Below are positions 5,990 to 63,751 of a stretch of 64,000 nucleotides of DNA, in pieces. The DNA comes from Candidatus Gastranaerophilales bacterium (lineage in GTDB: Bacteria > Cyanobacteriota > Vampirovibrionia > Gastranaerophilales > Gastranaerophilaceae): assembly GCA_944322615.1 (NCBI GenBank), contig CALUPH010000005.1, forward strand, positions 1-64,000, read 5' to 3'. The position numbers and the translations under genes are program-made. Below the pieces are notes generated by a model. That model ran no database searches. It was not told where the DNA came from and worked only from the letters and a program-made list of their open reading frames with translations. Position 1 is the stretch's first letter. Every line of letters begins with the position of its first letter.

Positions 5990-5996
5990 AAAATCA

Positions 5997-6025: not shown

Positions 6026-6029
6026 AATA

Positions 6030-7551: not shown

Positions 7552-7560
7552 TGTTACAAT
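7552..7560 (+). promoter_or_regulatory. Extended -10 promoter of thiL, likely leaderless
   Basis: TGT-TACAAT (TG at 7552-7553, -10 at 7555-7560) forms an extended -10 element only 6 bp before the thiL ATG. There is no Shine-Dalgarno sequence and only a weak -35. A leaderless message is the simplest reading. Confidence 0.45.
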
Positions 7561-7566
7561 TCATAT

Positions 7567-8517
7567 ATGAATGAATTAAGATTTTTAGAAATTATAAATA
7601 AAACTTTGGATTCGTCCTCTTTTTTAGGTGATGATTGTGCTTATTTGGATGATTTTGATATTTTTGTTACTCAGGATACTTTAGTTGAAGATGTTCATTT
7701 CTCTTTATATACAATCAGTCCTTATCTGTTGGGAAGAAAGGCTGTTAGTGTAAATTTAAGTGATTTGGCTGCTGCTTTGTCTATTCCTAAATTTATTTTA
7801 GTATCTTTATCATTACCGAAAAATACAAAGGATTCTTTTGTTTCAGAATTGTATAGAGGAATTAATGACGTTTGCGGTGAATTCGGAGTTAAAGTTGTAG
7901 GCGGTGATATTACAGGTAGTGATAAAGTTGTTATATCTATCTGTGCTATTGGTAAGAAAACATCATTATTCTTATCTTCAAGATCTAAGGCAAAAAAAGA
8001 TGATTATATTCTTGTAACGGGACAATTTGGTAATAGCTCCGCAGGTTTTTATGCTCTTTCTAATTTCTTGCAAGTTTCAGACAAACTTATTAATTCTCAT
8101 CTTAATCCAACTCCAAGAATAAATGAAGCTTTAAAATTAGCTTCTTTAATTGATAATGATATTGCTGTGATGGATTGTTCAGATGGTTTAATTGATGCTT
8201 TGTATAAAATTTCTATAGCAAGTATGCATAATCTTAAAATTGATATTAATTCAGTTCCTGTAAGTGATAATTTAAAAGAATTTTGTTCTTTTAATTCTTT
8301 AGATTATAAAAACTTTGTAAAATGGGGCGGTGAAGACTATGAACTTTTGCTTTGTGTTCCTGAAAAAACTTTCTTAAAGTTAGATAAGAATATTTTTACT
8401 TTAATAGGCAGAGTTCAAAATAAAGATAATAACCCTTCTGTTATTGTTAAAGATAATTCTTCTTCAGAAAAAATTACAAAAGACGTTTTTGAGAAAAACA
8501 GTTTTAATCATTTTTAA
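7567..8517 (+). CDS. thiL: Thiamine-monophosphate kinase ThiL
   Basis: ThiL phosphorylates thiamine monophosphate to thiamine diphosphate, the last step of the cofactor pathway that also serves the split transketolase encoded nearby. The 316 residues show the family motifs in order: GDD (21-23), TQDTLVEDVHF (35-45), NLSDLAAA (63-70) and GGDIT (112-116), which supply Mg/ATP-binding aspartates. DCSDGL and GGEDYELL follow in the C-terminal half. The length is normal. The start is the only suitable ATG and lies directly behind an extended -10 element. No other thiamine biosynthesis gene is in the window. Confidence 0.93.
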   Translation: MNELRFLEIINKTLDSSSFLGDDCAYLDDFDIFVTQDTLVEDVHFSLYTISPYLLGRKAVSVNLSDLAAALSIPKFILVSLSLPKNTKDSFVSELYRGINDVCGEFGVKVVGGDITGSDKVVISICAIGKKTSLFLSSRSKAKKDDYILVTGQFGNSSAGFYALSNFLQVSDKLINSHLNPTPRINEALKLASLIDNDIAVMDCSDGLIDALYKISIASMHNLKIDINSVPVSDNLKEFCSFNSLDYKNFVKWGGEDYELLLCVPEKTFLKLDKNIFTLIGRVQNKDNNPSVIVKDNSSSEKITKDVFEKNSFNHF

Positions 8518-8614
8518 GTTATTTATGTAAATAAAAATAAAGTTTATTTATTTTATGCGCAAAAAATTATTTGTTTGTTTTTGTACCTAGTGTGTAGATA
8601 AATGGATTTTTTCT

Positions 8615-10192
8615 ATGAATATTCTAGCCCAAAAACTTTCTCAACAATCTTTGCCTCAATATATTTATAATCCTGGTCAATATGGTTTAAGTCCTAATAA
8701 TTCAAATGTCAAAGTTCAAAATAATAAAGCTAAAACCTCTATATTTTATATAAATGACATACATGGTCAGGTGCCCAAGATGCAAAGATTAGTTTCTGCT
8801 TCACATCATGCAGGAATGAATGCTGCGAAAAATGGTGCTGATATATTAAAAGTTTGTGCCGGTGATACATTCATAGGATCTGATGAGAAACGAAACCTTG
8901 CAGCTGCAAGGTTTTTAGATACAGCAGGTATCCATGCTCAAACATTAGGTAATCACGAGTTTGATATAACTGCTTCTATTTGCGGAAATTTATTAAAGGA
9001 TTCAAAGGTAAAAACTTTAGGTATGAATTTAAATTTCCCAAATGATTCTTCTCCTTTAGCACAAAACGTTTTGAAATCTACAATTGTTGAAGGTGATAGT
9101 GGTGAAAAATACGGATTGATTGGTGTTCAACCTTCAGATTTAGCTTCAAGGATTAAGAAAAAAGAAATTCTTGAAGGAATTACTACCGATGATAAAGAAC
9201 AGACAATGCGTGAATTGCAAGAAGAAGTTAATAAGTTAAAACAACAAGGTATAAATAAAATTATATTATTGTCTCATGAGGGTAATGCTGTTGAACGTGA
9301 AATTGCTCAAAAAGTAAGTGGTATTGATGTTATTATTGGCGGTCACTCTCACGATTTGATTGAAGGTGTTACGCAAGGTGAAAATTTGTTATATTCGCCA
9401 ATAGGTGAACCTGTTGTTATTACTCAAGCTGGTAGAGATGGTAACCATTATGGCGTTCTAAATTTAGAATTCAATGATGATGGTCAAATTACTTATGTTC
9501 AAAATAACATTATGGATACAAATATTCATAACCCGAATATGGTTATGACAAAGACTATTGATTCTATTTTGGGTAAATCTCCTGAAATAGGAAATTTAAA
9601 TCATGTTGACCCAATTCCGAAAAATAATCTTTTAGAAGAAAACCCATGGGCTGACTTTGTTGCTGATGCCATAAGAACAAATCTCGATGCGGATATAGTT
9701 TTAATTAACTCAGCTAATTTTAGAGGAAGTGTTGATCACGGTGTTGTAACAGAACGTGATATTACAAGTATTTTCCCGTTTAATAATAAATTGTTCAAAG
9801 TTAAATTAAATGAAGAAGATTTAGTTGATGCAATAAAACAATGTGGAAAATCATTAACTGCTAAAAATTCTAAACCTGGAATTATGCAAGTTTCTGGTCT
9901 TACTTATTCATTAGATGCTCAAGGTAATTTGACATCTTTATACTATATTGATAAACAAGGTAATAAAAAACAAATAGATATTAATCATCCTGATGAAGAT
10001 AAAATTTACACAGCTGTTTATGATGAGTTTTTAGTTGGCGGTGGTGATGATCTTGAAATGTTAGAACGTGATGATGATGAAATTATTGAACGTTATTCAT
10101 TTGATAAAGATAAAGTTACTATTGATTATATTAAATCTTTATCTCAGCCGTTTGATGTCCGTAAAGACGGAAGAATTCAAATAACTCAGTAG
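8615..10192 (+). CDS. UshA/5'-nucleotidase-like metallophosphatase without a signal peptide
   Basis: A two-domain phosphoesterase of the 5'-nucleotidase/UshA family (525 residues). The N-terminal calcineurin-like domain has every metal-ligand motif: NDIHGQ (D48, H50), GD (83-84), GNHE (112-115), SHEGN and GGHSHD. The C-terminal domain has NSANFRGSVDHG and a SIFPFNN loop typical of nucleotide binding. Family members are normally secreted, yet the first 40 residues here are polar (Gln/Asn/Ser/Tyr-rich) with no hydrophobic core. The enzyme may be cytosolic or exported by an unrecognised route. It lies alone between thiL and the next operon, with a weak TGGA upstream of its ATG. Confidence 0.87.
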   Translation: MNILAQKLSQQSLPQYIYNPGQYGLSPNNSNVKVQNNKAKTSIFYINDIHGQVPKMQRLVSASHHAGMNAAKNGADILKVCAGDTFIGSDEKRNLAAARFLDTAGIHAQTLGNHEFDITASICGNLLKDSKVKTLGMNLNFPNDSSPLAQNVLKSTIVEGDSGEKYGLIGVQPSDLASRIKKKEILEGITTDDKEQTMRELQEEVNKLKQQGINKIILLSHEGNAVEREIAQKVSGIDVIIGGHSHDLIEGVTQGENLLYSPIGEPVVITQAGRDGNHYGVLNLEFNDDGQITYVQNNIMDTNIHNPNMVMTKTIDSILGKSPEIGNLNHVDPIPKNNLLEENPWADFVADAIRTNLDADIVLINSANFRGSVDHGVVTERDITSIFPFNNKLFKVKLNEEDLVDAIKQCGKSLTAKNSKPGIMQVSGLTYSLDAQGNLTSLYYIDKQGNKKQIDINHPDEDKIYTAVYDEFLVGGGDDLEMLERDDDEIIERYSFDKDKVTIDYIKSLSQPFDVRKDGRIQITQ

Positions 10193-14233: not shown

Positions 14234-14490
14234 GCCGTGCCACTATCTATCGGCAAGTATAAATAAGGTTTTCGTTACATATACCTACTTCGCAAATAAA
14301 TACACCCACAGTTTACACCTTAGTGCTGCTACGTTCCCGTCCTGACACGGTTCGATGGACTATGCCATAAATACCTGCGCTATCAACGGTATATATAAAG
14401 TCTGCCGTATTCATACAAGTCTCACAATAGGCTCTGCACCCCGCTATGCGTTCGGGTCGAGAGATCCGCAAGGTCCCCGTGGAGCACGGC
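14234..14490 (-). ncRNA. ffs: Signal recognition particle RNA, large type with Alu domain
   Basis: The minus strand carries the SRP RNA core at 14323-14353: GTCAGG, ACG, a GGAA tetraloop, CGT, then AGCAGC, flanked by GAACC. This is the helix-8 Ffh-binding site with its asymmetric internal loop. The ends pair as GCCGTGC (5', 14484-14490) with GCACGGC (3', 14234-14240), closing a 257-nt rod. The 5' segment (CCGTGCT...CGGGGA...GCATAGCGGGG) resembles the Alu domain of the ~270-nt Bacillus SRP RNA, so this is the long form rather than the ~100-nt 4.5S form. Exact ends are inferred from pairing, the promoter and the terminator. Confidence 0.92.
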
Positions 14491-17626: not shown

Positions 17627-18622
17627 TTAAAATCCTGCTATATTCTCTTCTCTTGAGTGTTCTACTTCGCATTTAACTTGGAATATTTGTCCGTATAATT
17701 CGCAGTTCATACCCATTTCTTTTGCTTTTGTCTGTGTATATTTCATTAAATTATATATTGGCTTTAAGTCATTATCTACATTTTTCATAATCCAGTTAAA
17801 GTCGAGGTTTAATACTACACTCTTTATATTTATATCTTTGCATTTTTCGAGCCAAAGTTTTATTTCTTCTTCTGTATCGTTCAAACCCGGTACTATTATG
17901 TATTTTGCTTTGACATAATCTGCACCTATAGGCTGATTCTTTGCATATTCCTCAAGATGTTTCCATACTTTGTCATATGATTTTACTTGTTTTACTTTTT
18001 CGTGTACTTCTTTTGAACCTGCATCTATTGATACTAAAACTCTTACTACACCCTTTTTTAAACCTTTAATTATTGCATTACTTTTCTTTATTGCATTTGT
18101 ATGTATTATTATTTTTGTAAAATCGTGTTTTATAAATTCATTTAATAGAGCTTCAAATTCTCTGTATATTGTAGGTTCTCCGCCTGCAAAATCTATAGTT
18201 CCGTCTTTTTTTAAGATGTTGTTTTTTATCATATCTTTTATTAAAGGTAGAACTTTATAAACTTTAGTGTTTTCCAGTACATCTTTGTCTCTTGGTGCTT
18301 CGCAATATATGCAGTTTGAATTACAAGGAACCCAAGGCGTTAGCAACAGATAATCAATATAATCTTCATCATCCCAGTTCTTATATGCTGTATTTACGCA
18401 TTCTTTACATAGTTCAGGACAAGAATTTTCTCTATATTTCCTTCGTTGCTCTCGTTTTATATCAAAAAATTCTTTCCAATCTATTTTTTGTCCATAATAA
18501 TTCTCATATATAATTGGTCTTCCGCCATATCTCGGATTAAAGTTATTGCAGGAACGAATTCTGTTACAATGATCTAAAACCATTCCGTGTTCTATATAAC
18601 TACAACTTTCAAAACTTTCCAA
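17627..18622 (-). CDS. Radical SAM protein, paralogue C, with N-terminal cysteines
   Basis: A 331-residue radical SAM enzyme. The cluster motif CNSNCIYC (C100, C104, C107) binds the 4Fe-4S cluster that cleaves S-adenosylmethionine, and AGGEPT is the glycine-rich SAM-binding motif. Before the barrel lie extra cysteines C7, C25, C72 and C75, three or four of which align with the same positions in its paralogues and could hold a second cluster. There is no C-terminal SPASM cysteine array. The start is TTG with AAGGATA upstream. It is third in the tandem array, 10 bp after paralogue B and 1 bp before the dehydrogenase. Substrate unknown. Confidence 0.85.
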   Translation of the reverse strand: MESFESCSYIEHGMVLDHCNRIRSCNNFNPRYGGRPIIYENYYGQKIDWKEFFDIKREQRRKYRENSCPELCKECVNTAYKNWDDEDYIDYLLLTPWVPCNSNCIYCEAPRDKDVLENTKVYKVLPLIKDMIKNNILKKDGTIDFAGGEPTIYREFEALLNEFIKHDFTKIIIHTNAIKKSNAIIKGLKKGVVRVLVSIDAGSKEVHEKVKQVKSYDKVWKHLEEYAKNQPIGADYVKAKYIIVPGLNDTEEEIKLWLEKCKDINIKSVVLNLDFNWIMKNVDNDLKPIYNLMKYTQTKAKEMGMNCELYGQIFQVKCEVEHSREENIAGF

Positions 18623-18632
18623 TTTTATATCC

Positions 18633-19622
18633 TTATATTAATTTATATTCTGTTACTAAATATCTGAAATTATTATATTCAACCAAGTTTAAATTAAGTT
18701 CTTTTGCTCTTTGAATTATATAATTACATAATTCTATCAAATATTGAGGTTTTTCTTCATCTTTTGCTCTTAATTCTTTACAATAATCGTTTTCAATATC
18801 TATTACTATAGATTTTATTCCTGATTTAACAGTTAATTCCATCCATTTATCAATTTCCTCTTTGTTGGTATTAATTTCAGGAATTAATATATATTTAGTT
18901 TCCACATATATTTTGTTTTCAAGTTTTTCTTGAGCTTTTGCATATTTTTTAGCATTTTGCCAAAATTTATCAAATTTATCTACTCTTTTTACTGTTTTAT
19001 ACATTTCTTTTGTTCCGGAATCGGCTGATAAGCATACTGAAAGTTTTCCTTCTTTTATTCCTTTTTCAATTGCTTTTGAATATTTTATTCCTGAAGAATG
19101 TACTGTAATTCTTTCTGCTCCATTTTTTAGTAAAAAGGTTACTAATTCTTCAAATTCATTTAAAATAGTCGGTTCACCGCCTGCAAAAGTGATTTCTCCA
19201 TCCGGTCTAAACAATTTTCTCTTAAAAAGATCTTTTATCATTGGCATTACTTTATAATGCGGACGAGAGTTAAAGGCTTTTTTATCCCATTTCGTATAAC
19301 AATATATGCAGTCGCTATTACAGTGTGTCCAGTGATTAAAATGTATGTAATTGATATATGGTTTTGTATCTTCCCATCCACGATTTACAAGATTAAAACA
19401 TCCTTCGCATCTTGGGTCTATAATGCCATTTTTATTGTCGTTAATAAACTTTTCTTTTAAATTTAGTATTTCATCCCAGTTAACGTCTTTTCCATTGTAG
19501 TTTTCTTTTATGTAGAGTCTGCCGCCGCCTTTATGACAACATAAACAACACATTTCTATGTGATCATTTTCAAAGCTTAATCCATGTTGAAGCCAATGAC
19601 AGCTTGTATATTCTTGCATCAT
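18633..19622 (-). CDS. Radical SAM protein, paralogue B, with N-terminal cysteines
   Basis: A 329-residue paralogue of its two neighbours. The cluster motif is CNSDCIYC (C101, C105, C108), followed by AGGEPT. The N-terminal region has C8, CC at 25-26, a further CC at 28-29 and CEGC (72-75), then GWED before the barrel, so it has the richest set of accessory cysteines. The segments SCHWLQHG and NYNGKDVNWDE match SCxxIExG and NYxGxxIDWDxxF in the other copies. It overlaps the stop codon of paralogue A by one base (TAATG), indicating translational coupling. Confidence 0.85.
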   Translation of the reverse strand: MMQEYTSCHWLQHGLSFENDHIEMCCLCCHKGGGRLYIKENYNGKDVNWDEILNLKEKFINDNKNGIIDPRCEGCFNLVNRGWEDTKPYINYIHFNHWTHCNSDCIYCYTKWDKKAFNSRPHYKVMPMIKDLFKRKLFRPDGEITFAGGEPTILNEFEELVTFLLKNGAERITVHSSGIKYSKAIEKGIKEGKLSVCLSADSGTKEMYKTVKRVDKFDKFWQNAKKYAKAQEKLENKIYVETKYILIPEINTNKEEIDKWMELTVKSGIKSIVIDIENDYCKELRAKDEEKPQYLIELCNYIIQRAKELNLNLVEYNNFRYLVTEYKLI

Positions 19623-20596
19623 TATGCTCCTTCTTTTTCTTTTTTGAATTTCATCATGTGTTCGGCTCGTTCATATAATTCATATTTTAGACCTAAGTTC
19701 TTAGCTTTTTCTTGTGTATAATTGAAGAATTCTATTATTTCATCAGGGACGTTATCACGTCTTGCATAAAACCATTTTGATTCTATTTCTTGTAAAACAC
19801 AGTTGATGCCGTTTTCTTTTGCTTTTTTTAGCCAGAGTTCTATTTCATCTTTGTTGTCATTTAGTCCTGGTATAACAATATATTTTACTTTTACGGCAAA
19901 TGGATCTTTTTGATGAGATGCATATCTTTTTAAATTTTTCCATACTTTGTCAAATGATTTTACTTGCTTTACTTTTTCATGCATTTGTTTTGAACCTGCA
20001 TCAATAGAAACAATTAAATCAACACGGCCTGTTTTAAGTCCTTTTTCTATTGCTCTTGAGTATTTTATACAAGAGGAATGTATTCTTGTAAGCGGAAAAC
20101 CATAGTCCATAAAGATATGCAAAAGTTTATCGAATTCTTTTAGAAGAGTTACTTCCCCTCCGCCAAAACTAACGTGTCCGTTTGGACGTAATATATCTCT
20201 TTTTATCATATCTTTTAATATTGGTAAGAAATTATAATTCTTATATTTATTATATGCTTCTTTGTCATTCATAGTATGGCAATATGAGCATCTTGAATTA
20301 CATTTTGTCCAATAATCAAGATTAATCATACTTATTTTAGTATGATCATCAGGCCAATCTCTTTCTTCTAAGGAAATACAACCTTCGCATTTTGGGTAAA
20401 TCTTCCCGCTTTTGTGTAAATCTTTAATTTTCTTTTTGAAATCAAAAAAATTATCCCAATCAACAGGTTCCCCTTTGTAGTTATCTTTTACGATTGTATT
20501 ACCGCCGCCTTTTGCACTATACAAGCAGCATACCTTATAACTATCTATATCAAAATTTATGCCTGATTCTATCCAATAACAACTTTTATAACGCAA
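19622..20596 (-). CDS. Radical SAM protein, paralogue A, first of the operon
   Basis: A 324-residue radical SAM protein opening the array. The cluster motif is CNSRCSYC (C99, C103, C106). The SAM-binding motif is GGGEVT rather than GGEPT. Accessory cysteines are C6, CC at 23-24 and CEGC (70-73). SFDKVWKNLKRYA and KYIVIPGLNDNKDE recur almost unchanged in the other copies. The start is TTG with GAGGGA well placed, and a TATAAT lies about 25 bp further upstream, so the array is probably transcribed from here. The C-terminus is Lys/Glu-rich. The function is unknown; peptide or surface-glycan modification are possibilities. Confidence 0.85.
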   Translation of the reverse strand: MRYKSCYWIESGINFDIDSYKVCCLYSAKGGGNTIVKDNYKGEPVDWDNFFDFKKKIKDLHKSGKIYPKCEGCISLEERDWPDDHTKISMINLDYWTKCNSRCSYCHTMNDKEAYNKYKNYNFLPILKDMIKRDILRPNGHVSFGGGEVTLLKEFDKLLHIFMDYGFPLTRIHSSCIKYSRAIEKGLKTGRVDLIVSIDAGSKQMHEKVKQVKSFDKVWKNLKRYASHQKDPFAVKVKYIVIPGLNDNKDEIELWLKKAKENGINCVLQEIESKWFYARRDNVPDEIIEFFNYTQEKAKNLGLKYELYERAEHMMKFKKEKEGA

Positions 20597-49836: not shown

Positions 49837-51336
49837 ATGCAAATAAATATAAATAAATTTCATTTTTTATATCCTAATACTGTAAATACAAACAGACAGT
49901 ATGGTTTGAAATACCCGAATTTGGCTCCATTAGCGCAAGATACAGTTTCTTTTTCAGGCAGAGGAAAATTAATTGCTGAAAGCATGATTGATGCACCTCC
50001 TGAAAGAACTTGCAGACAAGTTGAAATTAATGCAGAACCTGCAAGATTTTATTTGGAATCTGTTTTAAATGAATATTTAAAACCGTTAACTCAAGTTAAT
50101 TCTGATTCAAATCCCAAGGAATTCCCTATTTTAGAATGTACGACAAGAGTTAAGAAATCAACAAGTATAAGAGAAAAAGTTGTATCTAAGTATTCTAAAA
50201 TATATACTGCAGAAGCTGATGAGTTCTCTGAAAGAGTTGTTGATGAACTTTTGAAATACTTTAAATTGCGTGATGGAATTTCTCGTGATTCAGTTGTTCA
50301 AGAAGCAAAGAAAAATATAGCAAGTAAAGTTCCTCCTTATGAATTTGCTTCATATTATTTTTCTACAATAACTTCAGATTTTAAGGAAAAAAATTGTTTT
50401 AATTTTTCTGATTATTCAGAAGAAAAAATGAAACAAATTTTCGCACAAATAACTGATACTTTGGAAGAAGTACCAAAATCTCCGCATACCGATGGTTCAG
50501 TATATATAGAACCAACCTCAATAAAAGGTGTTAAACATTACGCAAATGATATAGTTGGCGCTAGAATCACTATGAAAGAATCTGATCCTGAATATACCGG
50601 GTTGGTTTTAGCTGCATTAAAACAAGCTGTAGATGATGGTCTTTTAAATATTACTTCTATAGAAAATAACTTACCCGATCCTAAAAAACTTCCTCAGGGT
50701 AAAGAAATATCTGATTATGCTTATGCAACAGATTCTCAACTTAGAAAACTTGCAAAAGCTGCCGATGCAAAACTTATTAGAAATAAATCAAAATCAGGTT
50801 ATCTTGCTATCCATATAAACGTAGATTTATCAAGTCCTTTGTTCTCTTGTTATAAAGGTGTTTTTGATGGTTATACAGGTGAAATACAGATTATTGGTTC
50901 AGATGTTGAACAATTAAAAGATGTTGAAGATTTATGTTATAAACTTAAAGATGATAAAAATGCTATTCGTTCCGAATATAAGCCATTTAAAACTCATTTT
51001 AAGACTTATTATAATGATGAAACTAAAGAGGCTTTTGAAGACTATACATATGCTTTGTATCTGGCTCAAAGAACGCTTCCGCCTAACTCTAAAAGAACAG
51101 ATTTCTTTCCATCTATTGAAGAACTTGGATTTGAAGGTAAAGTTCCTAAAGAACTTGATTTTAATTATTTAAGAAGATTAAAAGAAAAATGCGATTTTTC
51201 TGCTAAACTTGCTCAAAAACAAGAAGAGATGAAAAATGGTGATAAGAGTAGTCATTCGGAAACAATTAAAACTATAAAACATAATGGCAATATCAAAACA
51301 GTAAAAAGCCTTATATCTTATATAATAAGAGGTTAG
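49837..51336 (+). CDS. RelA/SpoT-type alarmone synthetase-like protein
   Basis: A 499-residue protein with a RelA/SpoT nucleotidyltransferase-like domain. Recognised in order: TRVKKSTSIREK (about 101-112), comparable to the R-x-K-S-x-x-S-I-x-x-K ATP-site motif; HYANDIVGARITM (about 236-248), with the metal-binding Asp; SGYLAIHINV (about 319-328), with the guanine-stacking Tyr; and GEIQIIGS (about 348-355), with the catalytic Glu. No HD hydrolase, TGS or ACT domain is attached. About 90 extra residues precede it, including a polar N-terminus ending in QDTVSFSG, and a C-terminal helical part follows. It may synthesise (p)ppGpp or (pp)pApp-like nucleotides, or be a toxSAS-type toxin. The ribosome binding site is weak (GGG). 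Confidence 0.7.
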   Translation: MQININKFHFLYPNTVNTNRQYGLKYPNLAPLAQDTVSFSGRGKLIAESMIDAPPERTCRQVEINAEPARFYLESVLNEYLKPLTQVNSDSNPKEFPILECTTRVKKSTSIREKVVSKYSKIYTAEADEFSERVVDELLKYFKLRDGISRDSVVQEAKKNIASKVPPYEFASYYFSTITSDFKEKNCFNFSDYSEEKMKQIFAQITDTLEEVPKSPHTDGSVYIEPTSIKGVKHYANDIVGARITMKESDPEYTGLVLAALKQAVDDGLLNITSIENNLPDPKKLPQGKEISDYAYATDSQLRKLAKAADAKLIRNKSKSGYLAIHINVDLSSPLFSCYKGVFDGYTGEIQIIGSDVEQLKDVEDLCYKLKDDKNAIRSEYKPFKTHFKTYYNDETKEAFEDYTYALYLAQRTLPPNSKRTDFFPSIEELGFEGKVPKELDFNYLRRLKEKCDFSAKLAQKQEEMKNGDKSSHSETIKTIKHNGNIKTVKSLISYIIRG

Positions 51337-52874: not shown

Positions 52875-53810
52875 TTACTTGTTATGTATGATTCTGTCAA
52901 AATATTCTATTGTTTTTAAAAGCCCTTCTTTTATTTGAATTTTAGGTTCCCATTTGAGATTTTCTTTTGCAATAGATATATTTGGTTCTCTTTGCGTTGG
53001 GTCATCAGATGGTAATTCTTTAAAAATAATCTCTGATTTTGAATTTGTAAGTTCAATAATCAATTTAGCAAATTCCAATATAGTATGTTCATCAGGATTA
53101 CCTAAATTAACTGGCTTATCATAATTGCTTTCCATTAATTTGATAAGTGCATCAACTAAGTCTGATACATAACAAAATGCTCTTGTTTGAGAGCCTGTTC
53201 CGTATACGGTTATTGGTTCATTTTTTAATGCTTGGACAATAAAATTAGATACTACTCTTCCATCATTTAAAGCCATTCTTGGACCATAAGTGTTAAAAAT
53301 ACGTGCTATTCTAATATCCACATTGTTTTGTCTGTGGTAGTCCATCATAAGCGTTTCTGCACATCTTTTTCCTTCATCATAACAGCTACGAATGCCAATA
53401 GGATTGACATTTCCCCAATATGTTTCAACTTGCGGATGAATTTGCGGATCTCCGTATACTTCACTTGTGCTTGCTTGTAGAATTCTTGCCTTGCATCTTT
53501 TTGCAAGACCAAGCATATTTATTATACCTATAACTGATGTCTTTATTGTTTTTATTGGATTGTACTGATAATGTATAGGAGAAGCTGGACAAGCTAAATT
53601 ATATATTTGATCTACTTCTGCCAAATATTCATTAATAATATCGTGTCTTACAAGTTCAAACCTGTTGTTTCCGATTAAATGCCTTATATTATCTTTTGAA
53701 CCTGTAAAAAAATTATCCAGACATATTATATCATTTCCGTCGTTTAAAAGTTTTTCAGATAAATGTGAACCGATAAAACCAGCACCACCTGTTATTAATA
53801 TTCTTTTCAT
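52875..53810 (-). CDS. UDP-glucuronate decarboxylase (UDP-xylose synthase)
   Basis: A 311-residue extended short-chain dehydrogenase/reductase. The NAD site is TGGAGFIGS (7-15), and the catalytic residues are Thr/Ser near 114-116 (ASTSEVYG), Tyr144 and Lys148 (SCYDEGK). [34 protein letters not shown] and [10 protein letters not shown] are hallmarks of UXS rather than of UDP-glucose epimerases. The product is UDP-xylose, a donor for surface glycans. The gene overlaps the ABC exporter gene by 4 bp (ATGA), so both are co-translated. GAGGAAATA precedes the ATG. Confidence 0.92.
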
Positions 53811-55621
53811 AAAGTTATTTCCTCTGAATTTTTAAATTGCATTTCATATAGGTGCTTGTATTGACCGTTTTCAATAGAAAGTAATTCTTTGTGTGTACCA
53901 AGCTCAACTAATTCACCATCATTGATTACTGCAATCCTGTCAGCATTTTTAATAGTAGATAGTCTGTGTGCTATTACAAAAACAGTTTTATTTTTTATTA
54001 AATTGTCTAAAGCTTTTTGTACAACTGCTTCAGATTCATTGTCTAAAGCTGATGTTGCTTCATCTAAAATAATTATTGGTGTATTTCTTATCATTGCTCT
54101 TGCAATAGCAACTCTTTGTCTTTGACCGCCTGAAAGTGTCAGTCCTCTTTCTCCTAAAATTGTTTCTAATCCATCAGGAAGTGCAGCTATAACATCATCA
54201 AGATGCGATGCTGAAAGAGCCGTGTTTAATTCTTCTTGTGTTGCATTTGGGTTTGCAAGTAAAATATTTTCTCTGATTGTTCCTGTAAATAAAAAATTAT
54301 CTTGAAAAACAAACGATATATTTTTTCTAAGTTCATTTAATTTAAAGTTTTTAATATCAATTCCATCGAATTTAATTGAACCTGATTTTACGTCATAAAA
54401 TCTTGGAATTAAATTAACAAACGTGGATTTTCCACCTCCTGAATTTCCGACTATAGCAAGTGTTTCTCCCTTTTTAACGTATAAATTAATATCTTTTAGT
54501 ACAGGTTTATTATCAACATATTCAAAGTAAACATTTTCAAAAGTAACACCGCTTGTTAAAGTAGGAATATCAATTGTTGTTTCTTTATCTTTAATCATTG
54601 GTACATAATCAAAAAGTTCAAATACACGACCCATAGCAACGAATATATTTTGAATGCTTGTCATTGTATTCCCCAATGTTTTTATAGGCTTATATAAAAG
54701 TAATAAAGATGTTACAAATGAAGCAAAAGAACCTGCTGTCATTTGTCCTGAATATATTAGTTTTGTACCATAGAATAGTACAAAGGCTATTCCAAATGAA
54801 GCAATCAAATACATTATAGGTGACATCCAGCCAACTCGTTTAGTAAGAGAAATTGAGACATCAAAACTTTTGTTTATACCATCAGTAAATAATTTTTTTT
54901 GTCTTTCTTGTAAATTATATGCTGTAACAACTTTGTTGCCGGAATAAGTTTCATTTATTGTTGTCATAATATCACCAGTTATGACAGTGTTTTTATTAGA
55001 AACAGATTTGATTTTTTTTCTAATGAAAAATACAGGTACAAAAGCAATAGCTAAAACTAAAACACCTACAATCGCGAGTTTCCAAGAACTATAAAGCATA
55101 ACTGTAATTAAAGACATTGCACCAAACAAGCTTATAATGAAAGTTTTAATTTGTTCCACTATGCCTTTTGATGCTGAATCAGGGTCTGTAAGATATCTGT
55201 TAATAATTAATCCGGATGAATTTTCATCAAAAAACGAAGTATCCATAAAAACTAATCTTGCGAATAAATCATTTTTTACTGCATTTGTGATTTTTAAACT
55301 GGTCCAGTCTGTAAGGTATGAATTCAGATATCTTAATACACCTTGAAAAACAGCAAAAAATATTATAGCGAAAGGCATACCGTATGCCATAGCCATATAT
55401 GGTATTTCTACTCCAAAAATTATTAAATTTTGCTGACCTACGACATAGTCCATATATGGTTTAAGTGCAAAAGATACAACACCATCTAATAGTCCTACTG
55501 GTATAGCTATTATAAAACCTAAGATTACTTTACCCAGAAAAGGTTTTATATATGGGAAAATTCGTTTTAATAACCATCCGTATTTGAATGAGGTTAAAGC
55601 TTCTGATTCTTTTAATTTCAT
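53807..55621 (-). CDS. MsbA-like ABC exporter (permease-ATPase fusion)
   Basis: A 604-residue half-transporter that works as a dimer. The first ~330 residues hold six membrane helices of the type IV exporter fold; the ATPase follows with Walker [11 protein letters not shown]-loop FVFQDNFLF, signature LSGGQRQR, Walker [13 protein letters not shown] and H-loop IAHRLST. It resembles MsbA lipid A/lipid-linked glycan flippases and related multidrug exporters. Its coupling to the UDP-xylose synthase gene suggests a lipid-linked or glycan substrate, which is an inference. AAGGATTAAC precedes the ATG. Confidence 0.9.
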
Positions 55622-55712: not shown

Positions 55713-56810
55713 ATGACGAATACATATAGAAGTTGCCATTCAATAGAAGGTGAATTATTTTTTAATCATTTAAATAAAGTCGGTTATTGTTGCATGCTTA
55801 CACCAAATGGTGGTCAGCCGATTTTGTATGAAAATTATCAAGGTGAGCTTATTGATTGGGATAAATTTTTCAAACAAAGAGATGAACACATTGAACTTAT
55901 GAAAAGGGGTTTATCTTTACCTGCTTGTACAGACTGTCTGTGGATTAAAGATGCAAAATGGGAAGTTCGTAAAAAAGAATTCAGATATATTTTATTCAAT
56001 ATTTGGGTTAAGTGTAATTTATATTGTATTTATTGTTCAAATCATAAGGATGAAAATGTATTGAATAATACGAAAGAGTATAATTTAATACCTGTTATTA
56101 AAGACATGATAGAAAAAAAGCTATTAACAGAAAATACTAAAATTGATATAGCCGGGGGTGAAGCAACTCTTGATAAGAATTTTGATGAATTCCTTTCATT
56201 GCTTATAGATAGTGGAGTTAAAAACATAAATATAAATACGAATTCAACAATATTTTCAAAAAGTATAGAAGATGGAATAAAGAAGGGAGTTGTATCTATT
56301 ATTTCTTCTGTTGATTCGGGAACTCCTAAAAAGTTTGCATACATAAAGAAGAAAAAACTATGGAATAATGTGTGGCAAAATATTTCAAAATATTCAAAAA
56401 GTATTAATCAAAACATAAATAATAATTCCGTAAGAACAAAATTTATTATTATTCCTGGTATCAACAGTTCCAAAAGTGAAATTTTAAAATTTATTCTCAA
56501 ATCAAAGAAATCAAATGTTTCAGGAGTTATTTTAAACATTGATTTGCATTGGTTAAGACAGCATTATGATGATAAAAATACAATGACAGAAATTATAAAT
56601 TTAACTAAATATTTTATTAGAATTGCAAATATATTAGATATAGATTGGCAAATATGGGCACATATTGAAGATTTAATAAAAAGATATAATCTGGTTCAAG
56701 AATCTTCGAAAATAGATATTGATTTTATTTTTGATAAAACTAAAAATAAAAAAACTATATTGGACAAATTCTTTATAATAATTTTAAGAATTATATCTTT
56801 AACTATGTAA
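55713..56810 (+). CDS. Radical SAM protein, paralogue D (unlinked fourth copy)
   Basis: A 365-residue member of the same family as the three tandem copies at 17.6-20.6 kb. The cluster motif is CNLYCIYC (C101, C105, C108), the SAM motif is AGGEAT, and the accessory cysteines C8, CC at 26-27 and CTDC (72-75) are in the same places. YENYQGELIDWDKFF and FIIIPGINSSKSE match the shared pattern. It has a C-terminal extension of about 35 residues ending in a hydrophobic stretch (FFIIILRIISLTM), which the other copies lack. There is no clear ribosome binding site; it is divergent from the MsbA-like exporter gene. Confidence 0.84.
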   Translation: MTNTYRSCHSIEGELFFNHLNKVGYCCMLTPNGGQPILYENYQGELIDWDKFFKQRDEHIELMKRGLSLPACTDCLWIKDAKWEVRKKEFRYILFNIWVKCNLYCIYCSNHKDENVLNNTKEYNLIPVIKDMIEKKLLTENTKIDIAGGEATLDKNFDEFLSLLIDSGVKNININTNSTIFSKSIEDGIKKGVVSIISSVDSGTPKKFAYIKKKKLWNNVWQNISKYSKSINQNINNNSVRTKFIIIPGINSSKSEILKFILKSKKSNVSGVILNIDLHWLRQHYDDKNTMTEIINLTKYFIRIANILDIDWQIWAHIEDLIKRYNLVQESSKIDIDFIFDKTKNKKTILDKFFIIILRIISLTM

Positions 56811-56893
56811 CAAAATTTTTACAATATCCGTGAAAATAGCATTTTTAAAGATTTAGGACCCTTTTTAGTTTAGCGTGTTAGAAGGGGTTTTTT

Positions 56894-59566
56894 ATGGAAA
56901 TTGGATCATTTTCTGAATTTAGAACAAATCCGGTGTATACAAATAATTCTGTTGTCCAAACAGATAATGAAGATAAAAAATCAGTAAAAAAAGAAAAACT
57001 TGTTGAAACAGCAAAGACAGTTGCACCAATAGCAATATCTTTAGCTGCAATTCCTGTAACAGCATTAATTGCTACAAAAATTACAACAAGTAAAGTTGCG
57101 GGTTTAAATAATAATTTAGTTAATGATTTAAAAGGACAGATAAAAAATTTAAGTGATGATCTTGCAAAAATGCAGGCGTTAGCTGAACAAAGAGGAATAT
57201 TATCTACTCAAAATATGCAAAATGTTGTAAACAGTTCAAAAAAAGAAAATGCTAAAATTTGGTCTGTTTTATTAGCTCTTGCCGGACTTGGAACAGCATA
57301 TAAAGCAGGTGACCTTTCTGACGATGTAAAAAAAGATCTTCCGAAAAAAGTATCTGATAAAGTTAGTGATTTAGATTCAAAATCATCACGTGCTATTTCT
57401 GCAGCGGAACAAGCAATAGCTTTAAATGGAAATAGTTTAGGGCAAAAGTATGTTGAAGATATCAATGGAATACAATTATTAAAAAACTCTAATTCTTTAA
57501 ATAAAAATGCTCAAAAATATGCACAAGCTGTCGAAGAAATAAAGACTTCAGCGCCTAAGCATTTATATGAAGCACCAAGTATAAAACCAATAACAAAATC
57601 TAACCCGACTTTATGGTCTGTTACATCAGAATTTGCACCTGTAAAAGAAGGCGGGCTTGGTTCTGTTCCTGTTGAAATACAAAATAATGTTACTAAACTT
57701 GGTATAAATATTCCAACTTTTATTCCGATGTATCAACAAAAAGGTATTGCATCATTCAGACAAGAAGGCAATGAATATATTTATTCTTATAAAGGAAAAG
57801 ATTTTAAACTTGAAAAAGTAGCTTCTTTTAAATTAGATGCATATCAAAGTGCTAAGTCTAAAACAGAAGATGTTGAAATTTATTTGTCTTCTACTAAAGA
57901 CGAAGCAGGAAGAGAAAAGCAACTTATCTTTGTGAAAAATGATAATTATTTTAACGGTACAATTTATCAAACAAGTGAAAAAACTGAAGAACCTGAAAAA
58001 TTCGCATTTTTCTCTAAAGCTGTTTACGAGTTTGCAAAAGCAAAAGAAGATCCAAAGAGTGTTAAAGGATTAAATATATTTGATAGCAAAGCATTTGATT
58101 CTATTCAAGCTCCTGACGGTTTAGTTTTAAATGATTGGCAAGCATCTCCAATTGCCGCTTTAGCAAGATATAAGGTACCAATGGAAAATGCATATGGTGA
58201 ATTATCAGACGAAGCTGCAAAAAAATTATCAGATATGACTATTATTACTATTGGTCATAATGCTATGTATCAAGGTTCTACAAGAAACAATAACAATGAT
58301 GCTCAAAGAAAAGAATCAACAACTAATATACTGAACACATTATTTGATAATTATGCATACGATATTGTTTCAAATGCTACTACAAATGCTTCAGAAACAG
58401 ATCCTACCGATGATGGCTTAGAAAATTTAGATAATGTTCTAATCATGAATAAACAAGATGGCTATTCAAATCATACAAACCTTTTAAATATGGGAATATG
58501 CTTGAGTGATTATTTCCACCCTGTTTCTCAAAATTATGCTAATGAAATCATATCAGATGATCATCCTGAATTAGCAGGTGAGTTAAGATGGGCATTAAAT
58601 CAAAAAGCGAAATCAGGCTCTTTGGTCGGAATTATAAATGGTAATGATTTTAATAATTTGTCTATAGAAGCAAAAAAATCACAAATTTTACAACAAACAA
58701 GAGTTGAGCCGTTAACATATAACAAAACGTCTGATATATCAGATGTAATGGCTGCAAGATTGGAGAACAAAATAAACTTTTATAATGATTATATGCTCCC
58801 ATTCACACATAAAAATGATAAGTCTAATTCTGACGAAAATGTTGAGAAAGTGAGAAAACTTTCAAGTAAATTAGAATTTGTAGAAGGCAACAAAGGTACA
58901 GAATTACCTGTCTTATCTGATGAAGAACTTGCAACTACACCTGTTATAACATCTGTAGGCCGTTTGGTTTCACAAAAAGGCATAGGTATAATGTCTGATG
59001 CAATAAAATTACTTCTTGATAATTGGGAAAAGGATTTCCCAGGTAAAAACAAACCTATTTTTTACCTGGCAGGTCAAGATGGTGAAAATGGAACTCAAAG
59101 AAAATACATTGAAGATTTGAAAAACAAGAAATTAAAACCTGAAGATTCAAATAGAGTAGTATTTGCACACGGATTTGCTCCAATGAGCGCATTAACTGCA
59201 TCTTCTGATTTCTTTTTACTTCCAAGTATATTTGAACCTTGCGGATTAACACAAGGTGAATCATTTGCACTTGGTACTCCGGTAATAGGAAGTGCTGTTG
59301 GCGGTATTGTTGATACTGTAAATAGAGACGGTAAAACAAACGGTATTCTAACAGATAAAACTAAACCACTAACTGCTGAAGGTTTTTATCAAGCAATGAA
59401 GGAAGGATTAAAAATATACTTTGAAAACCCTGAACAATATGAAAAGATGGTTCAAGATTCATTGAGTGAAGACTTTAGTTGGATTCAAAAAGGTAAGCAA
59501 GGTCCTATTTTTGATTATCTTGAAAAATTAGGTATTGATAAGTCAACTTTGCCTGAAATCATGTAA
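56894..59566 (+). CDS. glgA: Glycogen synthase with a membrane-anchored N-terminal extension
   Basis: An 890-residue chimera. From about 229 onward it is a GT5 glycogen/starch synthase: WSVTSEFAPVKEGGLGSVP with the ADP-glucose-binding K-x-G-G-L (KEGGL, 241-245), NYFNG, LNDWQ, SVGRLVSQKG, and the catalytic E-x7-E (E781, E789) in FEPCGLTQGE. The first ~228 residues are unrelated: a polar N-terminus, a hydrophobic segment at 41-62, a coiled-coil-like stretch at 70-100 and a second hydrophobic segment at 122-138. Typical GlgA is about 480 residues, so this is nearly double and likely membrane-associated. AGAAGGGG precedes the ATG. No other glycogen gene is nearby. Confidence 0.86.
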   Translation: MEIGSFSEFRTNPVYTNNSVVQTDNEDKKSVKKEKLVETAKTVAPIAISLAAIPVTALIATKITTSKVAGLNNNLVNDLKGQIKNLSDDLAKMQALAEQRGILSTQNMQNVVNSSKKENAKIWSVLLALAGLGTAYKAGDLSDDVKKDLPKKVSDKVSDLDSKSSRAISAAEQAIALNGNSLGQKYVEDINGIQLLKNSNSLNKNAQKYAQAVEEIKTSAPKHLYEAPSIKPITKSNPTLWSVTSEFAPVKEGGLGSVPVEIQNNVTKLGINIPTFIPMYQQKGIASFRQEGNEYIYSYKGKDFKLEKVASFKLDAYQSAKSKTEDVEIYLSSTKDEAGREKQLIFVKNDNYFNGTIYQTSEKTEEPEKFAFFSKAVYEFAKAKEDPKSVKGLNIFDSKAFDSIQAPDGLVLNDWQASPIAALARYKVPMENAYGELSDEAAKKLSDMTIITIGHNAMYQGSTRNNNNDAQRKESTTNILNTLFDNYAYDIVSNATTNASETDPTDDGLENLDNVLIMNKQDGYSNHTNLLNMGICLSDYFHPVSQNYANEIISDDHPELAGELRWALNQKAKSGSLVGIINGNDFNNLSIEAKKSQILQQTRVEPLTYNKTSDISDVMAARLENKINFYNDYMLPFTHKNDKSNSDENVEKVRKLSSKLEFVEGNKGTELPVLSDEELATTPVITSVGRLVSQKGIGIMSDAIKLLLDNWEKDFPGKNKPIFYLAGQDGENGTQRKYIEDLKNKKLKPEDSNRVVFAHGFAPMSALTASSDFFLLPSIFEPCGLTQGESFALGTPVIGSAVGGIVDTVNRDGKTNGILTDKTKPLTAEGFYQAMKEGLKIYFENPEQYEKMVQDSLSEDFSWIQKGKQGPIFDYLEKLGIDKSTLPEIM

Positions 59567-59604: not shown

Positions 59605-61743
59605 ATGGATAAATCTTATTCAAAACTTGTTGATATTGCTTACAATATGCACGTTTCAGGTAAGTTAGATGAAGCGTTAGATGTCTATAATAAACTTTTA
59701 TCTATAAATCCTGATGATTTAAATGTTAAGAATTTGTATGCACAATTAAATGTTTCAAAGAAAAACTATGATATAGCTTTGCAAATATTTAATGAAATAT
59801 ATGAAAAAACAAATCTGCAAGATATAAAGATAAATATTGCACAGATATATTTAATAAAAAATATGTATAAAAGTGCAATTGATATTTTAATTGATTTCCC
59901 TGAAGATAATAAGAGTGTTTTGAATATTCTTTCTGTTTCGTATTTGAATGAAAAGGAATATGACAAAGCAAAAGCTTGTTATAAGAAATTGGTTAAACTT
60001 ATTCCTAATGACTATAGAAATTTTTATAATATTTCTATATGCGAAAAATATTTAAACAATATTGAAGACTCTTTGAAATATGCATTAAAGGCTTTTGAAA
60101 TAAATTCGACTGATATTGATGTAATCATACATATTGCATTAATTTATGAAGCCCAAAATGATATAAATAATGCAATATTCTATCTTGAAAAAGTTAATGA
60201 ACTTAAAGTTGATGAGAATATACTTTATCATATCGGAGTTTTATATAAAAAAACAAGCAATTATATAAAAGCAGTATCTTATTTTGACAAAGTTATTCAA
60301 TTAAATCCTAATAATAAAAATGCAATGTTAAATATTGCATCTACATATAAGTTCATTGATATGGCTAATGCGCTTGAAATATATCAAGATATAAATAAAA
60401 TATATCCTGATGATTTGACTGTTTATTTTCAAATTTACAGTATTTATTATGAAATGCTGGATTTTAAAAATGCACTTAATATATCAATTGAATTAATCAA
60501 TAAAAATCCTAATGAATATATTTATTATTTAATGGCTGGAGATTGTTATTTAGAATTATATGAATATAATAGCGCTATTGAATATTATAAAAAGTCTTTG
60601 GACCTTTTTCCTGATAATGTCCAAGTAAAAGAGAGTCTAGCCAAGGCTTATTATTCAAACGGAGATTTAAAGTTAGCTGATAATATTCTTTCTGATATAA
60701 ATTCCGATTGTTATACTTATACATTTATTCATTTAAAATTAAGAAATTTACAGAAAGTTCTGACAGGATTTTATAAGTGGTGTACGAATCTTAGACCTGC
60801 AGATTACGGAAAGAACAAGGCTAGAAGTTTTTTCTATAAGTTAAATTTAGATAAAAAGTATTCTATTACAGAGGAAGAATTTACTTCTCTTGGTTTTCAA
60901 ACTAAAACTGACAATAGTAATTTAATTTTAAATTTTTCTAAGAAAAATGCACAATTAGATTCAGATATTACAAATAAGAATATTCTCATATATACTATGC
61001 ACGGTATTGGCGATTTTATAATGTTTTCAAGATATATAAAAATATTAGAAAATAAAGTCCAAAATATTCTTTTATACGTCCCAAAATCTATTGAAAGAAT
61101 AGTAAAATATAATTTCCCGAATATACAAGTATTTGTTGCTAACGAAAATGTACCTGAGTCATTATATGATATTTCCATGCCTGAACTACTTACATTGTGT
61201 TATTCCGGGACTGATTTAATGAATATTCCATATTCAAAAGGATATTTATCTGTTCCAGATGATGAAATTAAAGAAAAATCAAAATTAAATATTTTTGACA
61301 GCAAAAAGAAAAAGGTAGGAATTTTCTGGCAGGGAAATCCTACAATTCTTTTAAATCGTTCGGTAAAGTTAGCTGAATTTATTCCTTTATTTGATATTCC
61401 AAATATACAAATATACTCATTCCAAATCTCAAAGATTGATGATGAATCTGAAAAAATAAAAAAAACATTGTCATTAATCGATTTGTCATCATATATTAGA
61501 GACTATACAGATACAGCTATTTTCTTAAAAAATATTGATATTCTTGTTACTATAGATACATCAATTGCGCATTTGGCTGGTGCAATGGGAATTAAAACAT
61601 TTTTATTACTTCCGTATGATAGTGAATGGAGATGGTTTACAGATGAAGAAAAAACTCCATGGTATGATAGTATAAAAATATTTAAGCAAAAAGAACCAAA
61701 CAATTGGAAAGACGTTATACAAAGAGTTAAAAATGAAATTTAA
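59605..61743 (+). CDS. TPR protein with C-terminal glycosyltransferase-like domain, copy 1
   Basis: A 712-residue protein. The first ~370 residues are about nine TPR repeats. The C-terminal part (about 430-712) is a GT-B-like domain: NILIYTMHGIGDFIMFSRY, KKKVGIFWQGNPT, then VTIDTSIAHLAGAMGIKTFLLL and WRWFTDEEKTPWYDS. This module resembles heptosyltransferase-like (GT9-related) domains found fused to TPRs in proteins that probably glycosylate other proteins or surface structures. It is a tandem paralogue of the next gene, overlapping it by 11 bp. The donor and acceptor are unknown. Confidence 0.8.
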   Translation: MDKSYSKLVDIAYNMHVSGKLDEALDVYNKLLSINPDDLNVKNLYAQLNVSKKNYDIALQIFNEIYEKTNLQDIKINIAQIYLIKNMYKSAIDILIDFPEDNKSVLNILSVSYLNEKEYDKAKACYKKLVKLIPNDYRNFYNISICEKYLNNIEDSLKYALKAFEINSTDIDVIIHIALIYEAQNDINNAIFYLEKVNELKVDENILYHIGVLYKKTSNYIKAVSYFDKVIQLNPNNKNAMLNIASTYKFIDMANALEIYQDINKIYPDDLTVYFQIYSIYYEMLDFKNALNISIELINKNPNEYIYYLMAGDCYLELYEYNSAIEYYKKSLDLFPDNVQVKESLAKAYYSNGDLKLADNILSDINSDCYTYTFIHLKLRNLQKVLTGFYKWCTNLRPADYGKNKARSFFYKLNLDKKYSITEEEFTSLGFQTKTDNSNLILNFSKKNAQLDSDITNKNILIYTMHGIGDFIMFSRYIKILENKVQNILLYVPKSIERIVKYNFPNIQVFVANENVPESLYDISMPELLTLCYSGTDLMNIPYSKGYLSVPDDEIKEKSKLNIFDSKKKKVGIFWQGNPTILLNRSVKLAEFIPLFDIPNIQIYSFQISKIDDESEKIKKTLSLIDLSSYIRDYTDTAIFLKNIDILVTIDTSIAHLAGAMGIKTFLLLPYDSEWRWFTDEEKTPWYDSIKIFKQKEPNNWKDVIQRVKNEI

Positions 61744-63751
61744 TTATCAAGAAATTTCCGATACAGCATATAAGCTACATAAGAAAAATATGTTGGATGA
61801 AGCCGAAAAACTGTATAAAGAGTTATTGAATATCAGACCTGATGACGTAAATGTTTTAAATTTAATTGGTTTATTGTATCTGGCAAAACATAATACAACT
61901 GAGGCAATAAATTATTTATCAAGGGCTTATATCTTAAAAAAGTCTGCATACATAGCATCAAATTTGGCAAAAGCATATTATTTTAATTCAGAGCCAGAAA
62001 AAGCAATTAAAATATATAAACAAGCATTATCGTATGAAGAAAATGATGACATATATTATTCAATAGCTTTAGCTTATAAAAAATTAAATGATTATGAGAA
62101 TATAATACTGAATTATAAAAAAGCTATTGAAATAAATCCTAAGAATTATTCTGCATTATATAATTTATCTCTTGCATATAACGATATTAAGGATATTAAT
62201 AATGCAATATTTTATGCAGAAAAATGTATAGAGATAAGAAATGATGATGACGATATTTTTGCACTTTTGTCCGGATACTATGAAGATAAAAAAGATTATG
62301 AGTTATCCATAGAGGCATTGAGGCGAGCTATATTTATAAATAATAAAAAGTATATATATTTCTATAACCTTGGTGTTTTATTATCAAAGAAAGAACATTT
62401 TAATGAAGCTGAAGCTGCATATATGAAATCAATCGAATTAAATAATACTCATATTGAGTCATATATAAACTTGGCATCATTATATAAGGATAAAGACAAT
62501 AATAAAGCATTAGAATATTTACAAAAAGCTTATGATATTAATCAAACGGATGAAAATTTGTTATTAAGTCTAGCGCAAACATTTAGATTGCTTTATAGGA
62601 ATAGAGAAAGTATTGAAATTTTAGAGAAACTTACTCAAAATAATAAAAATTGTGCTGAAGCATATTCGCAAATTGCAATAAATTATATGGATTTATGCGA
62701 TTATAATAGAGCCCTTGAAAATTATAACCTTGCATTGTCTTTAAATAATGAAAACTTGAATTATAAACATGGCAAAGCTGTTGCACTTAAATATTTAGGT
62801 TGTATTGAAGAATCTAAAGAGATTTTAGAACAAATTATAACAAATCCGGATTCATCAATTCAAAGTACAATTACGCTTGGAATGTTATATTTGGCAGACA
62901 GACAATTTGAAAAAGGGATGAAATTATACACTCAAAGAAGTAAAGAAAGTAAATTTATTGAAGTTTTTAAAGAAAAAATATGGAATAAAGAAGTAGATTT
63001 AAAAGATAAAAATGTATTAATATATTCAGATTGCGGATTTGGCGATACATTAATGTATTCAAGATTTTTACCCATATTGAATAAACAGGTTAAAAGTTTA
63101 ACACTTCAGACTGATAAAGAGCTTTTATCTTTATTAAAAGAATCATTACAAGGAATAAATATAATAAAAAAGAGTATAACCCCGCCGCAATATGACATTG
63201 TAATGTCATTAATGGATATACAGTATGCTTTAAATATGGACTTTTCTCAAGTTAAGAATACTCAGCCATATTTGACTGCTGATATAAATCTTATAAAAAA
63301 ATATTTTTCATTGGACATTTTTAAAACAAAAAATAAAAAAATAGGTTTATGTTGGCAAGGAAATAAAAGAATATTTAAGAACAGGTCAATTAATTTTGAA
63401 TATATAAAAAAACTTATTACAAAAGGAAACTGTACTTTCTATTCATTCCAATTGCAAAGTGATATTCAAGACTTTGATAATTTCTATAATTTAAAGGATT
63501 ATATTAATGATTTTTCAGATACAGCCGCTTTGTTAATGAATATGGATTTAATTATAACAATAGATTCATCAGTTGCACATTTAGCTGGAGCATTAGGTGT
63601 AAAAACATATTTACTTCTGCCTAAAACAGCAGAATGGCGTTGGTTTTATGATGAAGAAAAAACAATTTGGTATAATAGTGTAAGAATTTTTAGACAAAAC
63701 GAGTCAAATAATTGGGAAGAAGTTATTGAAAGAGTATACAAAGAAATATGA
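61733..63751 (+). CDS. TPR protein with C-terminal glycosyltransferase-like domain, copy 2
   Basis: A 672-residue paralogue of the preceding gene with the same plan: about ten TPR repeats (1-370), then the GT-B-like domain (NVLIYSDCGFGDTLMYSRF, KKIGLCWQGNKR, IDSSVAHLAGALGVKTYLLL, EWRWFYDEEKTIWYNS). The end sequence NNWEEVIERV parallels NNWKDVIQRV in copy 1. Differences are larger in the TPR part than in the transferase part, suggesting duplicated catalysis with different partners. It overlaps copy 1 by 11 bp and the next gene as ATGA, so all three share an operon. Confidence 0.8.
   Translation: MKFNYQEISDTAYKLHKKNMLDEAEKLYKELLNIRPDDVNVLNLIGLLYLAKHNTTEAINYLSRAYILKKSAYIASNLAKAYYFNSEPEKAIKIYKQALSYEENDDIYYSIALAYKKLNDYENIILNYKKAIEINPKNYSALYNLSLAYNDIKDINNAIFYAEKCIEIRNDDDDIFALLSGYYEDKKDYELSIEALRRAIFINNKKYIYFYNLGVLLSKKEHFNEAEAAYMKSIELNNTHIESYINLASLYKDKDNNKALEYLQKAYDINQTDENLLLSLAQTFRLLYRNRESIEILEKLTQNNKNCAEAYSQIAINYMDLCDYNRALENYNLALSLNNENLNYKHGKAVALKYLGCIEESKEILEQIITNPDSSIQSTITLGMLYLADRQFEKGMKLYTQRSKESKFIEVFKEKIWNKEVDLKDKNVLIYSDCGFGDTLMYSRFLPILNKQVKSLTLQTDKELLSLLKESLQGINIIKKSITPPQYDIVMSLMDIQYALNMDFSQVKNTQPYLTADINLIKKYFSLDIFKTKNKKIGLCWQGNKRIFKNRSINFEYIKKLITKGNCTFYSFQLQSDIQDFDNFYNLKDYINDFSDTAALLMNMDLIITIDSSVAHLAGALGVKTYLLLPKTAEWRWFYDEEKTIWYNSVRIFRQNESNNWEEVIERVYKEI

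Follow-up and report, generated by a model that had tools for sequence, protein, structure and literature searches.

A candidate membrane-tethered GT5 glucan synthase beside soluble GlgA in Gastranaerophilales

We analysed a 64,000-nucleotide stretch of DNA (the window; contig CALUPH010000005.1, positions 1 to 64,000) from a metagenome-assembled genome of Gastranaerophilales, gut Melainabacteria related to the cyanobacteria (1.96-Mb assembly, 29 contigs). An open reading frame (ORF) on its plus strand (56894-59566, ATG start) encodes a protein of 890 amino acids (aa) that belongs to glycosyltransferase family GT5; its strand and coordinates were as first noted. In our best reading, which we hold at slightly better than even chances, this protein is an active, membrane-tethered α-glucan synthase that works beside soluble GlgA in the manner of plant starch synthase 4 (SS4); its activity and localisation are both predicted. 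Bacterial glycogen synthesis is usually regarded as cytosolic, and the site and manner of glycogen particle initiation in bacteria are poorly understood. An order-wide anchored synthase beside a normal GlgA would make membrane-started glucan directly testable in bacteria, and in a sister lineage of the photosynthetic cyanobacteria. If the reading holds, part of the glucose polymer is made at the membrane and not free in the cell. Literature searches revealed no report of the 890-aa GT5 protein or of a membrane-anchored bacterial GlgA. The gene has the following parts (pLDDT, predicted local distance difference test; dN/dS, ratio of nonsynonymous to synonymous substitution rates).

56873..56893, plus strand: leader gcgtgttagaaggggtttttt just before the start, a diverged form of the genus leader GTGTGTTTATAAAAGGGGT
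56894..59566, plus strand: putatively anchored GT5 enzyme, 890 aa (ORF, Pfam, orthologs, structure model)
56894..56920, plus strand: tip of the N terminus, residues 1-9 (MEIGSFSEF here, MxxGVFS[DEN]F as consensus of the genus; F6 does not vary in an 18-row module alignment)
56921..57016, plus strand: variable, probably disordered linker, residues 10-41 (indels; pLDDT <40)
57017..57076, plus strand: hydrophobic segment 1, residues 42-61, probable transmembrane helix (invariant P45 and P54; hydropathy, dN/dS)
57107..57235, plus strand: helical, coiled-coil-like stalk, residues 72-114 (structure models, heptad-like pattern)
57251..57304, plus strand: hydrophobic segment 2, residues 120-137, weak or short transmembrane helix (hydropathy, dN/dS)
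57320..57427, plus strand: predicted helix, residues 143-178, low confidence (structure model)
57446..57601, plus strand: folded N-terminal addition to the catalytic module, residues 185-236 (pLDDT about 71-98)
57617..58561, plus strand: GT5 N-terminal catalytic domain, residues 242-556, with K251xGG, D414 and H455-N456 (Pfam, alignments)
58682..58933, plus strand: stretch rich in insertions when compared with ordinary GlgA, residues 597-680 (alignment with the genome's own GlgA)
58934..59452, plus strand: GT-B C-terminal domain (GT1-type in Pfam), residues 681-853, with R690, K695 and the E781 motif FEPCGL (Pfam, alignments)

The preliminary description, made from the sequence alone, proposed that the N-terminal extension be sought in other genomes. 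It was present in 34 of the 35 genus genomes examined (host included), whole or as contig-end fragments, and the aligned orthologs had an uninterrupted reading frame after their conserved start, MxxGVFS[DEN]F. The relatives of the host are Candidatus Gastranaerophilales and include Ca. Avigastranaerophilus faecigallinarum (90% identity across the 890-aa GT5). Pairwise dN/dS was 0.11-0.28 for residues 1-236 and 0.05-0.12 for the core. The hydrophobic segments were the most constrained parts of the extension (segment 1, 0-0.32, mostly <0.2; segment 2, mostly 0-0.17; mostly 0-0.18 for the two together); the tip and linker had the highest dN/dS, and mean pairwise identity of residues 1-38 was 26%. 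These findings indicate that the extension is under purifying selection, which is strongest in the hydrophobic segments.

Hydropathy analysis (Kyte-Doolittle, 19-residue window; classical transmembrane threshold 1.6) placed the two hydrophobic segments, first proposed at residues 41-62 and 122-138, at residues 42-61 and 120-137. Segment 1 had a best value of 2.07 at position 42/43; its orthologs had values of 1.58-2.11, with no charged residue, and the threshold was reached in essentially all of them. At least one segment of transmembrane strength was thus kept in the orthologs. Segment 2 reached 1.08 at position 120 and about 0.7-1.4 across orthologs, below the threshold. The stretch between both segments was helical with a heptad-like pattern, in agreement with its earlier description as coiled-coil-like. 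Segment 1 is a convincing predicted transmembrane helix, and segment 2 is a weaker candidate. The membrane tethering proposed from two segments is well supported for segment 1, through hydropathy, conservation and selection, and only plausible for segment 2. AlphaFold was confident for residues 185-890. Because confidence began only at about residue 185, the anchor comprises residues 1-180, and residues ~185-236, formerly counted in a ~228-residue extension ahead of the core, belong to the enzyme fold.

The catalytic core showed clear GT5 membership: PF08323 matched residues 242-556 with 80.6 bits (cut-off 22.7). The motifs K251xGG, D414-W, H455-N456, R690, K695 and E781, to which we assign catalytic roles from general knowledge of GT5 enzymes, were all present; K251xGG, H455-N456, R690, K695 and E781 were invariant or at least 90% conserved in 44 rows. 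The TIGR02095 (glgA) model gave 169.9 bits, far below its cut-off of 328. Relative to the genome's own GlgA, the protein carries insertions at two places: about 25 residues follow HNxxYQG, and about 80 lie at 597-680. Foldseek revealed plant SS4 as the nearest fold (6gne, E 7e-25, TM-score 0.77 on the target), with A. tumefaciens GlgA, cyanobacterial granule-bound starch synthase and E. coli GlgA also among the nearest. SS4 was the top match in both phmmer and Foldseek, but identity was no more than about 20% and the GlgA matches came close behind. The 890-aa protein is a divergent GT5 member, outside the GlgA subfamily model; it is not Ags1, and probably not an SS4 either. The earlier claim of a complete GT5 core thus held as to the motifs; the family itself is divergent. 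The intact motifs, the fold match to SS4 and GlgA, and a rare leader in common with a GH13 branching-type enzyme support a glucan as the predicted product.

An ordinary GlgA of 482 aa is encoded on a different contig of the window's genome, which outside the window was read in selected stretches; the hydropathy of this GlgA shows neither the strong nor the weak segment. Most congeners with the anchored GT5 also gave a GlgA match of ordinary size. A tree of GT5 domains had three groups: ordinary GlgA; an N-anchored group (100/100); and a group with an SFxG-type N-terminal tag, some members of which are C-anchored. For four distant N-anchored members and one C-anchored member, the rows went into the tree without trimming to the core, which leaves the deep branching within the anchored clades unsure. 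The tree indicates that GT5 proteins with the extension form a clade of their own, apart from GlgA, that spans the order. In other families of Gastranaerophilales, distant members mostly had a strong and then a weaker hydrophobic segment of different sequence; two members (locus L064) were weaker in hydropathy throughout. In one family (L063, family f6, G039; 1310-9087), a tagged nucleotidyl-transferase (sugar-nucleotide-type NTP-transferase) is encoded between two genes for N-anchored GT5s; the homolog of this transferase in the window's genome (G000:C10:2671-4260) has weak similarity to GlgC. Two more divergent N-anchored GT5 genes lie within 10 kb in L064:1-9369 (G048); the second is followed by a gene for a 160-aa protein, likewise with a hydrophobic segment and a coil.

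The window's genome (G000) also encodes a GT5 with the mirror arrangement:

G000:C15:4705-7572, same genome as the window: C-anchored, SFKG-tagged GT5, 956 aa

This protein resembles the window protein in its GT5 domains, in having a strong transmembrane segment, a coil and a weak segment, and in its FSxF-like terminal tip. It differs in that the anchor is C-terminal and in reverse order (the window protein starts MEIGSFSEF), and it belongs to a separate clade. After the enzyme come a weak hydrophobic segment (822), a coil, a strong transmembrane segment (886), a linker and the end NPFSNFNQYVS; orthologs end in NPFANFNQYVS, NGLFSNFAKYV, QNLFAGFPKYQ or GNLFQHFSQYV. It was found in only 6 of 35 genus genomes examined. 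Comparison of the N- and C-terminal anchors by hhalign gave a probability of 68 and E 5e-5 over coil-rich sequence. Common descent of the two anchors is weakly supported by this match; convergence or coil similarity is also possible. The N-terminal module profile clearly matched only the 890-aa type of GT5 and a GHKL-like-looking protein in two congeners. Scanning the genome for the DNA pattern ATG..[VI]FSxF revealed no enrichment of further N-terminal tips (24 matches vs 19 in the control), and among FSxFx[QK]Y matches the known C-terminal tip was the sole convincing case. Because neither scan gave enrichment or a further convincing case, the tip alone is not established as a general tag.

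The leader GTGTGTTTATAAAAGGGGT was found immediately upstream of the start in many orthologs, and in the window's genome the same kind of leader precedes the gene of the C-anchored GT5 and that of a tagged GH13 enzyme (G000:C19, 802 aa; most similar to trehalohydrolases and branching enzymes). The C-anchored GT5 carries the leader TGTGTTTAT, whereas the window gene has a diverged form. The pattern TGTGTTTAT-N0-10-GGG-N3-10-RTG had only 4 distinct sites in the three whole genomes G000, G004 and G012, with 1 control match. These sites precede the anchored GT5 in G004 and G012, and the C-anchored GT5 and the tagged GH13 enzyme in G000. The leader was not found before canonical GlgC, ordinary GlgA or a 705-aa GH13 enzyme. 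These findings suggest co-regulation of the anchored GT5s and the GH13 branching-type enzyme through the leader.

The module would run from a short tip (FSxF) through a disordered linker, a strong transmembrane helix and a stalk of coiled coil to a weaker hydrophobic helix that adjoins the enzyme. The enzyme held at the membrane by this module would be an active, retaining GT5 α-glucan synthase. GT5 enzymes use nucleotide-glucose, which is cytoplasmic, so the catalytic domain is expected in the cytoplasm. The likeliest topology is a hairpin of two crossings, with the coil outside and the positively charged N-terminal side inside; tip and enzyme would both be cytoplasmic, where the presumed donor is available. 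The anchored GT5 would then act as a second, spatially fixed synthase beside soluble GlgA, and would probably start or position glucan at the membrane with the presumably co-expressed GH13 branching-type enzyme. In some species a second anchored GT5 may join in, and the FSxF tip may serve as a docking site. Several points weigh against this picture. Segment 2 lies below the usual transmembrane threshold, which bears on the choice between a hairpin and a single span, and a single crossing places enzyme and tip on opposite sides of the membrane. Positive-inside analysis of the charges flanking the segments was ambiguous on orientation. AlphaFold had no confidence for residues 1-141, and an AlphaFold2 model of the module alone was uninformative (predicted TM-score 0.18). 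The window gene's own leader is diverged and does not match the TGTGTTTAT pattern, and that pattern was drawn up once the three genes had been seen; co-regulation is therefore suggested, not proved. The conserved neighbours, described below, also fit a role in the envelope.

The statement that GlgA is normally soluble and half this size proved true, and membrane-associated GT5-type enzymes are known in eukaryotes. Bacterial GlgA (GT5, TIGR02095; E. coli 2qzs, A. tumefaciens 1rzu) has the GT-B fold, KxGG, HN, R/K and FEPCGL in common with the window protein; however, it is soluble, about 480 aa long and lacks the extension and insertions, and the window protein scores below the GlgA cut-off in a separate clade. 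The plant SS4 catalytic domain (6gne) is the best structural match. The N-terminal coiled-coil region is reported to let SS4 associate with thylakoid membranes (PMC5996153). SS4 associates through its coiled-coil N terminus and partners, whereas the window protein has a coil-like helix plus hydrophobic segments of its own; homology between the two extensions would be conjecture, and a part in initiation is suggested by analogy only. In fungal Ags1, an α-1,3-glucan synthase, transmembrane regions tie an intracellular domain that resembles glycogen synthase to the membrane (PMC5753165). Ags1 is much larger and multi-domain, and has both an extracellular domain and a multi-span region. The window protein has neither: Pfam found no other domain in it and hydropathy only two segments.

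A wider proposal, speculative and rather improbable in our estimate, is a second, spatially separate α-glucan pathway. Tagged N- and C-anchored GT5s, the GH13 branching-type enzyme and perhaps a GlgC-like NTP-transferase would gather at one membrane site through a swappable FSxF-tipped anchor usable at either protein end, with a specific leader in common. If true, such a pathway would give bacteria an equivalent of the membrane-associated site at which chloroplasts initiate starch. Both the mirror-image anchors and the common leader offer concrete handles on the idea of a membrane start.

The genes around the GT5 gene bear on the first alternative, an enzyme of envelope glycan synthesis:

53807..55621, minus strand: MsbA-like ATP-binding cassette (ABC) transporter, divergent neighbour (conserved in most genus loci)
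59605..61743, plus strand: tetratricopeptide repeat (TPR) protein, with a C-terminal half like the one encoded by the following gene (often conserved neighbour downstream)
61733..63751, plus strand: TPR protein, weak GT9-like C terminus (conserved downstream neighbour)

The MsbA-like ABC and downstream TPR (GT9-like) genes flank the GT5 gene in most genus loci, often with a short-chain dehydrogenase/reductase (SDR) sugar epimerase. This conserved neighbourhood would fit an envelope role. The protein would then be a membrane-bound GT5-fold transferase that adds glucose onto a lipid- or surface-linked glycan for the MsbA-like exporter and the TPR/GT9-like transferases; its divergent core (glgA, 170 bits vs cut-off 328) would fit. 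However, the rare leader is common to a GH13 branching-type enzyme and another GT5, the neighbours in other families differ (including the NTP-transferase between two such GT5s), and the closest folds are starch and glycogen synthases. We consider an envelope role unlikely.

The extension could instead be a soluble domain for coiled-coil oligomerisation or granule binding, with the segments packed in the oligomer and not inserted in a membrane. The weakness of segment 2, the two invariant prolines inside segment 1, and the action of the SS4 N terminus through coiled coils and partner proteins (PMC5996153) are consistent with such a domain; however, segment 1 is uncharged in the orthologs and of transmembrane strength in nearly all, and most of the distant members retain a hydrophobic helix of different sequence. 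A soluble domain is thus fairly improbable. As to where a tethered enzyme would sit, the present data fit a granule surface or a membrane and cannot distinguish the two. A single crossing with an extracytoplasmic catalytic domain, whether the protein acts on external glycans or binds without enzymatic activity, is much less probable: segment 1 alone is a strong transmembrane helix and the positive charge ahead of it is compatible with an N-in orientation, but the nucleotide-glucose that GT5 enzymes need is cytoplasmic and all catalytic motifs are retained. Translation from near residue 225, named at the outset as the case that would leave a normal soluble GlgA, was rejected as scarcely credible: a C-terminal part of enzyme size exists, but the intact frame, genus-wide conservation and purifying selection over residues 1-236 make such a start very unlikely, residues 185-236 form part of the predicted fold, and the conserved leader directly precedes the far-upstream start.

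The tip and anchor module also occur on the large GHKL-like-looking protein of the two congeners (L061:1938-4505, L062:1200-3842), which has a GHKL-ATPase-looking stretch and the C-terminal sequence LHE[MI]SHK; no convincing match to this protein was found in Pfam, NCBIfam or PDB. Many Gastranaerophilales proteins have a low-complexity N terminus (often MK[IV]N..I[NS]) that ends in an [IVLP][SN]F[KGSAT]G-like motif before the first domain. Carriers include the products of window 49837-51336, G000:C15:4705-7572, G000:C19 (L212:297-2705) and G000:C10 (L214:1593-2195, 2431-4275), and proteins in L072, L080, L081 and L158. In an ORF sample biased towards such proteins, the density of the motif was about 13 times higher within the first 85 residues (7/22,440 vs 2/82,224). 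The low-complexity stretch and motif may together form an N-terminal tag peculiar to the lineage.

At window 17627-20329 and 55713-56810 lie several related genes of radical-SAM-like type that have no evident partners; the one at 55713 was confirmed by Pfam and the others were recognised by eye. The copy adjoining the GT5 gene was present only in the closest relatives. A bacterial large signal recognition particle RNA is encoded at window 14235-14489 on the minus strand.
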